From NCBI GenBank assembly GCA_016190245.1, contig JACPQY010000041.1, positions 1-45,878 of the forward strand: a stretch of DNA of 45,878 nt. The letters are read 5' to 3'. Shown here piece by piece: positions 23,903-28,364 of this stretch. How positions within the stretch are numbered: the first letter of the stretch is position 1; the number at the start of each line of letters is the position of its first letter. A program made the position numbers and the translations under genes. This DNA comes from Nitrospirota bacterium. Lineage in GTDB: Bacteria; JACPQY01. The notes under the pieces were generated by a model. It saw nothing but the letters and a program-made list of their open reading frames with translations. It did no database searches and had not been told where the DNA came from.

Positions 23903-25309
23903 CTAGTTTCCGCTGATGTGCATCTCGGAGATGAGGAGTGAGGGCGAGCCGTACGCGCCCATGAAGCGCAGGTCGGAGCCGACGGCGGCCACGCCGCGGA
24001 AGAGCCGGGCGAGGTTGCCGGCGATCCCGAACCCCCTCACGGGGCCGGACGGCTTTCCCTTGACGATCGAGCGGCCCATCGCGCCCAGCGAGAAATCCCC
24101 GGAGATGGGATCGGCGGTGTGGAGCCCGATCACCTCGGTGATGAACACGCCTTCCCCGCACTCCGCCAGAAGCGCCGAGGCCTTGAGTGTGCCCGGCTCG
24201 ACATGAAGGTTGGAGACCGAGAGCACAGGCGGCGATTGCGAGGAGCCCCGGCGCGCGTTGGCCGTCGAGGCGCGGCCGGTCCTGCGCGCCCAGTAGGTGT
24301 CGCACAGGTGGTTACGGAGCGTGCCCCTCTCGACGACGGGGGTTCGGCGGGAGACCACTCCCTCGGCGTCGAAGGGCGCTGCGTTGGAGCCGCGCGTCTC
24401 GATGCCGCTGTCCACGAGGGTGATTGCCTTCGCCATGACCGGGCGCCCCAGTATATCTCCCCACAGAGATTTTTTCTTTACGACGTTCTCGACATGGAAG
24501 GACGGGGCGAGGAGGGAAAGGAACTGGGCGGCCACCTGATTTTCAAGGACGACCGGACCCTGCCCCGTTCGGGGCAGGGTGCCTCCGAGGCGCTCGGCGG
24601 CCCGCCGGCCCACCCGTTCCCCCAGGCCCTCGGGGTCGAGGTCGGAGAGGCGGACGGAGAAGTCGAAGTCCCAGGCGCTCTCCGAGTCGGCGCCCTTTTC
24701 CGCCACGGCCATCACGCTGAGGCTGGCGTACGTTTTGGCGTAGCTGAGTTGGAGGCCGTTGGAGTTGAACAGATACACGGTGCCGTAGAGTTCATCGTAC
24801 GAGGCCTTGCGAACGCGCTGGACGCTCCGGTGGGCGCGCAGCGCCGCCGCCTCCATCTCCATGGCGAGGCCGATCTTCTCGTTCACGCCGGTGGCGGGCA
24901 CGGCGGGGTCGAAGAGGTCCAGCATCGGCAGGGGCGCGGTGGAGGGATGGGGGAGGCCGTAGTGCTCGTCCGGGTCAAGGCAGCGGGCCGTTTCGGCGGC
25001 GGATCGCACCGCGCGCCGGAGGCTCTCCGGCTCCAGGAGCGTGGTGTAGGAGAAGCCCATCCGCCGGTCGAGGAGGATGCGCACCGCCACGGTGGCGGTC
25101 TCCGCCCGTTCGTGCGAGTGGAGGCGGCGCGACTTGATCTCGATCGTGCGCTCGGCAAGGTGGTTCATGTAGATTTCCCACTCGGCGGCGCCGAGACGTT
25201 TGGATTCGACCAGGACGGCCTCGATCACGCGCTCGACGGTGCCTTCGTCCAGACCTTGCGCCGGGGGGGGGGTCCGTGTCGGCCGGGCGGGGGTGCGAGC
25301 GGCGGTCAT
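23903..25309 (-). CDS. PmbA/TldE-like peptidase-modulator family protein
   Basis: A 468-residue member of the TldD/PmbA family. Family features are EIKSRRLHSHERAETATVAV near the N-terminus, GRSIVKGKPSGPVRGFGIAG and the closing DLRFMGAYGSPSLLISEM. TldD/TldE pairs act as heterodimeric zinc proteases that process small peptides and modified peptides. The TldD-type HExxxH is absent, so this is the non-catalytic PmbA/TldE side, and no TldD gene lies in the window. ATG 25309 overlaps the stop of the GNAT gene (ATGA). A run of ten Gs on the plus strand lies in its N-terminal coding region (PPP), a risk point for sequence error. Confidence 0.85.
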   Translation of the reverse strand: MTAARTPARPTRTPPPAQGLDEGTVERVIEAVLVESKRLGAAEWEIYMNHLAERTIEIKSRRLHSHERAETATVAVRILLDRRMGFSYTTLLEPESLRRAVRSAAETARCLDPDEHYGLPHPSTAPLPMLDLFDPAVPATGVNEKIGLAMEMEAAALRAHRSVQRVRKASYDELYGTVYLFNSNGLQLSYAKTYASLSVMAVAEKGADSESAWDFDFSVRLSDLDPEGLGERVGRRAAERLGGTLPRTGQGPVVLENQVAAQFLSLLAPSFHVENVVKKKSLWGDILGRPVMAKAITLVDSGIETRGSNAAPFDAEGVVSRRTPVVERGTLRNHLCDTYWARRTGRASTANARRGSSQSPPVLSVSNLHVEPGTLKASALLAECGEGVFITEVIGLHTADPISGDFSLGAMGRSIVKGKPSGPVRGFGIAGNLARLFRGVAAVGSDLRFMGAYGSPSLLISEMHISGN

Positions 25310-25758
25310 AGGTCCCGGATCAGCGCGACTTCGCGGCAGTCCTTGAACCGCTCGCAGTAGATGCAGTCGCGCCAGACTTTCTGCGGGAGGGTCATCTTCT
25401 CCACCGCTCGGAAGCCGGCGCGCGCGAAGAACTGCGGATGGTAGGCGAGCGCGAACAGGCGGCGGAAGCCGAGCCGTCGGGCCTGGCGGATGCAGCGGCG
25501 CAGGAGCTTGATGCCGAGGTCCTGTCCCCGGTGGGCCCGGTCCACCACGAGGGAGCGCACCTCGCACAACTCCGGGGAATAGATCTTGAGCGAGCAGGTG
25601 CCGATGAGCTTGCGAGAGCGGTTGGTGACCACGAGGAACGTGGGAAGGTCCTTGGTGATGTCGTCGGGCGTGCGCGGAAGCACCTGCCGGACGCTCGACG
25701 CCTCCTGGATGAGCCGGTGGATCTTCGGGATGTCCGCGGCGGTCGCCGATCGAATCAC
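25306..25758 (-). CDS. GNAT N-acetyltransferase, short ArgA-like
   Basis: A 150-residue single-domain GNAT. The acetyl-CoA loop is VVDRAHRGQDLGIKLLRR (R/QxxGxG/A type), followed by FFARAGFRAVE. The C-terminal TLPQKVWRDCIYC and FKDCREVALI, with three clustered cysteines, matches the small ArgA-like N-acetylglutamate synthases of some bacteria, although no arginine gene is nearby, so substrate is uncertain. GTG 25758 overlaps the recN stop (GTGA) and its own stop overlaps the PmbA start, so all three are translationally coupled. Confidence 0.82.
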   Translation of the reverse strand: MIRSATAADIPKIHRLIQEASSVRQVLPRTPDDITKDLPTFLVVTNRSRKLIGTCSLKIYSPELCEVRSLVVDRAHRGQDLGIKLLRRCIRQARRLGFRRLFALAYHPQFFARAGFRAVEKMTLPQKVWRDCIYCERFKDCREVALIRDL

Positions 25759-27466
25759 GTCTTGCCCCCGCGCGCGGACCGCAGCAGCTCGGCGGCATAG
25801 GCGCGGGCTTTCTCGGTGATGGTCTCCCCGCCCAACATCCTCGCCAGTTCCTCGAGGCGGTCGGCGGATTGGAGGGGGTGGATCTCCGTGACGGTCCGGC
25901 CGCGCACGGGGCGCTTGCGCGCCTTAAGGTGCTGGTCCGCGAAGCAGGCGATCTGGGGGAGGTGCGTGATGCAGATGACCTGATGGCGCCGCGCGAGTTC
26001 GCGCAGTTTCTTTCCCACGGCCTCGGCCGCCGCTCCACCGATCCCCGCATCCACTTCGTCGAACACCAGTGTGACACCTTCCTTTTTCTGGGACAAGGCG
26101 TTTTTCAAAAGGAGCATGAGGCGCGAGGTCTCCCCCCCCGAGGCCACCCGCGCCAGTTCGCGGGGGGGCTCGCCGGGGTTGGCGGAGAAATAGTAGGTGG
26201 CTGTTATCGGTGAGTCGCCCGAGAGGAGCCACGCGCCGGCGAGTTCGAGGGCCGCCCCTTCCCCCCCCCGGTCTCCGGCCACGCGGCGGCCACCTCCACC
26301 GAGAAGGCCGCCTTCGCGAGGCCGACGGCCCCGCAGCCCGCCTCGATCTCCCGCGCCAGCTTCCGCGCGCCCAGATGGCGCCGCTTGAGCAGATCCTCGC
26401 ACGAGGCAACGAATTCGATCCAGGCCTGCCCGAACCGTCGGGCCACCTCTTCCCGGTCCTCCGCGGCCGTGGAGAGCTTCTCCAGTTCGGCGCGCCCCTC
26501 CTCGAGCGTTCGGAGCACCCGGTCCAGTGTGCCGCCGTACTTCTTCTTGAGGCGGTCGAGATCGTGGAGCCGCTGCTGCGCGGCTTCGAGCCGCGAGGGG
26601 TCGAACTCCAGACGGCTGAGATAGCCGGAGAGGTCCCGCGCGGCCTCCTGGACGAGGCTCTGCGCCGAAGCAAGCGCGTCGGCCGTGGAACCCAGGCGAG
26701 GGTCGATCTGCGTGAGAGGGCGGACGGCCTGCACGGATTTCCCGATCTTCCCCACCACCGCCTCATCGGACGAATAGAGCGCCTGCTCCACCTCGCCGAG
26801 AGTGGAGGCCATTTTCTCGCTGTTGGCCATGATTCGAACCTCGGCCTCGAGCGCTTCGTCTTCTCCCGGTTTCACCTGGCCGCGTTCGATCTCGCCGGTC
26901 TGGTAGGTCAGAAGATCGATGCGCTCGGCACGGGTTCGCGCGAGCCGGTCGAAATCGCGCAGTTCCGTGTAGAGGCGCGACGCGGCCTGGCGCCGATCTT
27001 CAACAGCCCTCGCATCCTCGTCCAGGCCCGCGAAGTCGTCGAGGTAGGCGAGCTGGCGCGCGGGAAGGGCGAGGTCCATGTATTCGTGCTGGCCATAGAG
27101 CCCGACGAGCCCGCGCCCCAGGCCCTCGAGTTGCGCGAGGGTGCGCGTTTCGCCGTTGATCTGAATGCGCCCGCGGCCCTCCCGGCTGAGTCTCCGCCGC
27201 AACTGGATCGTGCCGTCGGACTGGGCTGGATGCACCGACTCCCTGGGAGGCCCCTCCAGGCCGAAAACGCCCTCCACCACGGCCTCCTCGCACTGGGCGC
27301 GGATCAGGTCCGGGTGGGCTTTCGCGCCGAGGAGGATTTCCAGCGCGCCGATGAGGATGGACTTGCCGGCCCCCGTTTCGCCGGTGATCACACAGAGGCC
27401 GTCCTCGAACGTGAGGGTCAACTCATCGACGAGGGCGAAGTCCTTGATGTGGAGTTGCTTGAGCAT
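25755..27466 (-). pseudogene. recN: RecN DNA repair ATPase with one frameshift
   Basis: The two parts of RecN lie in different frames. The first frame starts at ATG 27466 (MLKQLHIKDFALVDELTL), has the Walker A GETGAGKSI (29-37) and the coiled-coil arms, and ends soon after AAWPETGGG. The second has YFSANPGEPPRELARVASGGETSR (signature), LVFDEVDAGIGG (Walker B) and a normal C-terminus. The switch falls in nine Gs (26261-26269 as C on the plus strand). Adding one G, or removing two, joins the halves into about 570 residues, normal for RecN. RecN is an SMC-like ATPase in double-strand break repair. Intact flanking sequence argues for a homopolymer error or slippage site rather than old decay. Confidence 0.88.
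26261..26269. other. C9/G9 homopolymer at the recN frame break
   Basis: Nine consecutive Cs on the plus strand (Gs on the coding strand) separate the two recN frames. Upstream reads ACC-GGG-GGG-GGG-AAG and ends at a stop 16 codons later; the conserved downstream frame needs the last G to begin GAA. Ten or seven Gs would restore it. Confidence 0.85.
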
Positions 27467-27491: not shown

Positions 27492-28364
27492 TCACCTCTC
27501 GCCCCATCCGAGCTTGGTTCGCAGAACCGTGAATGTGTCGGGGCAGGTGTGATTGAGCCGGATGACGCGCACGTCCGAAGGCGACCGCCGGACTTCAAGC
27601 ACGTCGTTGGAGGACATCTCGCAGTCCACCTGCCCATCCAGCGTCAGATGAACCTGCGAGGTCACCTTCGTCCTCAACGAGATCCGAACGCTCGACTGCT
27701 CGGGGAGCACGAGCGCGCGGTTGCTCAGCGTGTGGGGGCAGATGGGGGTGAGGACGAGGCAGTTGACCGACGGAACCACGATCGGCCCGCCGGCGGCCAG
27801 TGAGTAGGCGGTGGAGCCGGTCGGCGTGGCGAGGATCAATCCGTCCGACCTGTAGGTGGTGAGGTGCCGTTCGTCCACGGTGGCCTCGATTTCCAACATC
27901 CGCGCGATCGCGCCTTTCGTGATGACGGCATCGTTGAGGACGGTTTCCGACAGGGCGGTGCCCCCTCCGCGAACCAGGCGGGCGGCGAGCCGCATCCGAG
28001 AAAAGATTTCGTAGTCCCCGTGCGTGAGCTGCTCGAGGGCATGCGTCATGCTCTCCAGGGGAACCTCGGTGAGGAATCCAAGACTGCCCAGGTTGATCCC
28101 CAGGACGGGCACGCCGGACGCGCCTGCCACACGAGCTCCCCACAGGAACGTGCCATCCCCGCCGAGGACGAGGAGCACGTCGGTCCCCTCACTCAAGAGG
28201 TTGCCTTCGGGAACGCCATCACGCCCCAGGGCCACACCAGTCCGCCGCTCCAGCGTGACCCGAACCCCGTGGGCGGTAAGCCAATCGGCGGCCTTGCGCG
28301 TGGCTTCCGCCGCGGCCGCGAGGTCGTGCTTGGCGAGGATCGAAACCGCGGAGATCTTCTTCAC
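27492..28364 (-). CDS. nadK: NAD kinase
   Basis: A 290-residue NAD/polyphosphate-ATP kinase that makes NADP from NAD. The catalytic GGDGT is at 68-72 (VLGGDGTFLWG), the substrate NDAV at 144-147 (LNDAVITKG) and the ATP-binding ATPTGSTAYSLAAGGPIV follows, then the C-terminal LTLDGQ. Length is normal. The start is GTG 28364, giving MKKISAVSILAKHD; the ribosome site is weak. It heads the minus-strand run nadK-recN-GNAT-pmbA-PP2C, with recN 25 nt downstream. nadK next to recN is a conserved bacterial pairing. Confidence 0.93.
   Translation of the reverse strand: MKKISAVSILAKHDLAAAAEATRKAADWLTAHGVRVTLERRTGVALGRDGVPEGNLLSEGTDVLLVLGGDGTFLWGARVAGASGVPVLGINLGSLGFLTEVPLESMTHALEQLTHGDYEIFSRMRLAARLVRGGGTALSETVLNDAVITKGAIARMLEIEATVDERHLTTYRSDGLILATPTGSTAYSLAAGGPIVVPSVNCLVLTPICPHTLSNRALVLPEQSSVRISLRTKVTSQVHLTLDGQVDCEMSSNDVLEVRRSPSDVRVIRLNHTCPDTFTVLRTKLGWGER

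Follow-up and report, generated by a model that had tools for sequence, protein, structure and literature searches.

The recN gene analysed here is divided between two reading frames at a run of nine G residues, which raises the question of whether the division is a sporadic slip, an evolved switch, a recoding site or the mark of an old pseudogene. The gene lies in a window of 45,878 nucleotides (the whole stretch of DNA analysed) from a Nitrospirota draft genome, G000 (3,293,575 bases, 86 contigs, 84.8% complete, 65% GC). It is encoded on the minus strand, from an ATG at 27466–27464 to a stop at 25757–25755, and its length of 1712 nt is not divisible by three. The tract (26261–26269) is C9 on the plus strand and reads GGG GGG GGG, in frame 0, on the sense strand, and frame 0 runs into a stop 63 nt past the tract start. 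The codon-usage path through the window switches frame no more than 6 nt from the tract. An NAD kinase-like ORF upstream of recN (27492–28364, minus strand) and a GNAT-like acetyltransferase ORF downstream of it (25306–25758, minus strand), both taken from the ORF list with their translations judged by eye, are intact.

A search with the RecN family profile TIGR00634 recovers the gene as two separate matches. Specifically, the 5′ part in frame 0 (26204–27466, minus strand, delimited by the profile and the ORF list), which comprises the Walker A lobe and the coiled-coil arms, matches profile positions 1–407 upstream of the tract with 298 bits and includes GETGAGKS, which we take to be Walker A. 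The 3′ part in the other frame (25755–26258, minus strand, delimited by the profile and an alignment to 27 intact RecN proteins) comprises the signature, Walker B and the C-terminal lobe; it matches profile positions 423–562 with 191 bits and carries ASGGE and LVFDEVDAGIGG. Both lobes of the family, the N-terminal one with Walker A and the C-terminal one with signature and Walker B, are present over two frames, and neither half reaches the family cut-off of 407.85 bits in one open frame. The division at G9 that the preliminary description reported is real, and the two profile matches lie in different frames. Every motif and both profile halves are intact, with no further lesion in recN, and the frame is continuous at a second G run in the gene (G8, 26132–26139, minus strand). 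The profile search of the G000 draft gave these two halves as its two matches and no second recN copy.

The preliminary description had attributed the break to a slip at the G run rather than to old decay, and this attribution is well supported, because both halves keep their profile matches and the break falls exactly at the tract. Its further statement, that everything on both sides of the tract is conserved, needs to be narrowed: both profile halves are matched, and such conservation argues against old decay of recN, but the residues that directly flank the tract form a variable loop. In an alignment with 27 intact RecN proteins, from 27 of 30 RecN loci (L017, L020 and L027 were excluded), this loop varies in length and sequence and leads from the second coiled-coil arm to the start of the conserved C-terminal lobe.

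Relatives are represented by G001, the one other genome of the phylum in the search set, which belongs to the same family as G000. The recN of G001 is a single open frame of 569 codons, with 56% identity over the first half and no G run longer than 5, which argues against a conserved recoding site. In a profile search of 78 genomes, recN was matched in 73 and exceeded the family cut-off in 50; among the matches listed, adjacent halves in different frames occur in G000 only, and the recN of G056 is in pieces on two contigs. A scan of genome contigs for close strains gave 45 loci with a best identity of 37%, while plasmids gave nothing useful and viral contigs nothing.

To describe the tract in its genomic setting, we counted runs in 1,451,422 non-N bases of G000 (44%). 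This sample contains 157 G/C runs of at least 9 bases and one A/T run that reaches 9. The G/C runs number 656 at length 6, 147 at 7, 96 at 8, 63 at 9, 77 at 10, 14 at 11, 1 at 12 and 2 at 13, and the chance that a run is extended is 0.25–0.28 at lengths 2–5, 0.60–0.63 at lengths 7–9 and 0.18 at length 10. Relative to a synonymous-codon shuffle (60 rounds, 1,228 coding segments, 415,752 codons), sense G6 and G7 are depleted (303 versus 402 and 59 versus 121, respectively), G8 matches expectation (35 versus 36), and G9 and G10 exceed it (35 versus a mean of 12.1 and a maximum of 19; 37 versus a mean of 3.2 and a maximum of 7). Antisense C runs of at least 9 show no clear excess (30 versus 19.3, shuffle maximum 36). 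Of the 157 tracts of at least 9, 126 are on whichever strand of their stretch is richer in G, and the corresponding bias is weaker for runs of 4–5 (4628 of 7610, in a smaller sample of 0.81 Mb). Within the window, where long G/C runs are found at 2045–2055, 2543–2551, 25263–25272 and 26261–26269, the local excess is only mild (16 G8 matches versus a shuffle mean of 8.5, a number reached in 3 of 100 shuffles); the excess is clear genome-wide against the synonymous-codon shuffle.

Long G runs are also dense in G000 by comparison with other genomes. Overlapping G9 9-mers number 336 + 320, or ~199 per Mb, and only G042, with 519 in 1.8 Mb, is denser among the 78 genomes; the counts for G001 and G006 are 420 in 4.7 Mb and 208 in 2.6 Mb, respectively. 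G/C runs longer than 10 bases number 17 in the 1.45 Mb sampled, or 1.2 per 100 kb, and, according to the available text of PMC9262707, in only 18 of 1,598 complete genomes, one per genus, do homopolymers over 10 bases occur more than once per 100 kb. Some G tracts of G000 stand just 5′ of start codons (for example C63:76740, C56@20001:122990, C10:201007 and C37:11200), and such tracts could serve as long ribosome-binding sites.

We considered loss of mismatch repair as a cause of the tracts and set it aside. A MutS1 match was not found in the 84.8% complete draft, and MutL is present; one neighbour of the G001 mutS is likewise not found in G000 and the other gives weaker partial matches only, and an assembly gap explains the missing MutS equally well. 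G042, the densest in G9 of the 78 genomes, has neither a MutS1 nor a MutL match.

Frame breaks were sought both at the tracts and away from them, by the codon-usage path together with reading by eye, a procedure that breaks near gene ends may escape. Among the 157 tracts of at least 9, 92 are flanked on either side by 60 nt of one and the same coding frame, three coincide with frame breaks in conserved genes, and the remaining 62 fall at the edges of genes, in non-coding sequence or on a mixed path; 3 of the 95 in-gene tracts are broken. Besides recN (G9), the breaks affect a lipoate-protein ligase gene (G10, C2:26783–26792, corresponding to L123:6783–6792) and a DUF3089 hydrolase gene (G11, C10:202383–202393, corresponding to L160:2383–2393). 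The ligase matches LplA-B_cat positions 3–61 before the tract and 71–160 after it, and its G10 run falls in what we take to be the conserved SGGG motif. The hydrolase has its DUF3089 match before the tract; its C-terminal half has neither a Pfam match nor a plasmid match, and both halves match a single frame of 433 codons in G001. recN and the ligase share the sign of their frame offset, and the hydrolase has the opposite one.

Across 1,270 coding segments, the off-tract screen examined 589 same-strand junctions and flagged 25. Thirteen of the flagged junctions were judged by eye, and ten of these proved to be gene boundaries and three the breaks described above; no run longer than 5 lies near the remaining 12. 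With 13 of 25 flagged junctions inspected, no off-tract frame break was confirmed in 1.27 Mb of coding sequence, and five candidate places inspected by eye in the G001 sample all resemble gene boundaries. The confirmed breaks therefore cluster at G9–G11 (3 of 3, with none confirmed elsewhere), while the 92 of 95 in-gene tracts that are in frame indicate that selection generally outweighs slippage.

We conclude, with a probability of about 0.82, that the recN break is a sporadic slip of one base in a G9 tract of the slippage class, and not an evolved switch, a recoding site or an old pseudogene. The starting point would be a normal full-length recN, which a one-base slip in the nine-G run would put out of frame. 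The run would be one of several hundred G9–G11 tracts at slippage-prone lengths in G000, and the slip would be sporadic, as it appears to be in the two other genes broken at such tracts. We infer slippage as the cause of the break, and a sporadic slip explains the split, the tracts and the breaks with the least. Nothing supports an evolved switch, ribosomal recoding or rescue by RNA polymerase. In the GeneTack survey, as far as the available part of PMC3711429 describes it, singleton frame transitions are taken as indel mutations or sequencing errors, and the recN break falls into that singleton class.

The sporadic slip has two finer versions, which differ in where the slip would have arisen. 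For a slip in the data only, through PCR or sequencing slippage or a consensus miscall at G9, with recN intact in living cells, the chance is close to even. It accords with a draft in 86 contigs at this level of completeness and with 3 of 95 as a plausible miscall rate, and the accessible portions of two studies report that reads err at homopolymers of ~9–10 (PMC9262707) and that PCR slippage products increase from G8 to G11 (PMC4965091). However, 92 tracts of like length were assembled in frame and no off-tract break was confirmed among the junctions inspected, so the consensus of the assembly is good. The alternative version, a replication-slippage variant in vivo that forms the majority of the sampled population, with recN off and revertible by slippage, is a serious possibility at somewhat below even odds. 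The bimodal tract lengths with their sharp drop past 10 and the offsets of both signs at the three tracts speak for it, as do the three broken genes themselves, all of which are usually dispensable. Against it stand the presence of MutL, the missing MutS being perhaps a draft gap, and the proportion of tracts in frame, by which slippage is slow relative to selection; at a rate as low as 3 of 95, hypermutability of the tracts in vivo is suggested by their lengths, not by variation seen. The preliminary description had called an error likeliest and a change in vivo possible. Both stay candidate origins, but a slip made in the cell leaves a trace identical to that of one made in PCR or consensus calling, and the sequence alone does not separate them.

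Explanations that depart from a sporadic slip are all less probable. A decaying pseudogene in the lineage, with the G9 slip as its first lesion, would fit the fact that the sole recN found in G000 is broken, yet a second lesion is absent and the motifs and profile halves are intact, and we regard this reading as improbable. Slippage of RNA polymerase at the tract, restoring full-length recN, has a close precedent in the poly-A frameshifts of Blochmannia vafer, as presented in the available text of PMC3017870, but G/C runs are not prone to it in E. coli or Buchnera according to the published data in the accessible part of PMC5574713, which disfavour it at recN. Such rescue calls for an A or T run, and the run at the recN break is G; we consider it very improbable. 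Still less probable is programmed −1 ribosomal frameshifting at the heptamer G GGG GGG to yield full-length RecN. The heptamer conforms to X XXY YYZ in frame 0, and tandem slippage is possible on paper, but the site is not conserved, the recN of G001 having one frame and no tract, and the RNA from the tract onward, where a stimulatory structure would lie, folds no more stably than shuffles do (z = −0.51; 63 of 200 shuffles equalled or exceeded its stability). The intact G001 gene and the lack of a stable downstream structure led us to reject this mechanism. Phase-variable DNA repair, which the preliminary description had raised, finds no support of its own: the tract is missing in the sole relative compared, and hundreds of like tracts occur in varied genes. 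Phase variation of recN was not reported in the papers reached by a literature search, outside which most subscription journals lay.

The lesson from recN itself is modest, namely that, where a draft genome shows a gene out of frame at a long G run, this should not be taken for gene loss or for a repair switch. Of greater interest is the abundance of tracts in the genome. Because G9–G10 are several-fold above expectation, G6–G7 are below it, and the density of long runs is rare, G000 offers a natural setting in which to study how mononucleotide tracts in coding DNA reach and hold an equilibrium length. It is conceivable, though unlikely, that this uncultured phylum carries hundreds of G9–G10 tracts at slippage equilibrium, mostly in ordinary coding frames, and that housekeeping and repair functions, RecN among them, are constantly lost and recovered in its cells. 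If true, this would be contingency behaviour on a genome-wide scale, beyond the pathogens that are its usual study subjects.

Compared with known systems, the gene has all domains and motifs of the RecN family (TIGR00634) and differs from it in the two-frame split that leaves both halves below the cut-off. As described in the available text of PMC4965091, the phase-variable loci of Campylobacter have a tract profile of 257 G8, 214 G9, 431 G10, 77 G11 and 9 G12 and switch at rates near 1e-3 per division, and a C. jejuni genome has 29 tracts of at least 7, mainly in surface-modification genes, with switching observed. Like these poly-G/C contingency loci, as far as that account goes, the tracts of G000 are G8–G11 within frames, with a mode near 10, and a one-base change breaks the frame; the recN G9 is such a slippage-prone repeat within a reading frame, but G001, the sole relative compared, has no tract at the same place. 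Unlike the C. jejuni loci, the tracts of G000 number several hundred, include housekeeping genes, are nearly all in frame and are known from one assembly. In Blochmannia vafer, eight genes are frameshifted and 153 coding poly-A tracts reach at least 9 (available part of PMC3017870). With the poly-A tracts of Blochmannia and Buchnera, so far as these sources describe them, G000 shares a genome-wide mutational excess of homopolymers of which a few percent of the coding tracts are broken (3 of 95 in G000), whereas those are A/T tracts in reduced AT-rich genomes, with possible rescue by transcription, and those of G000 are G tracts in a genome of 65% GC.
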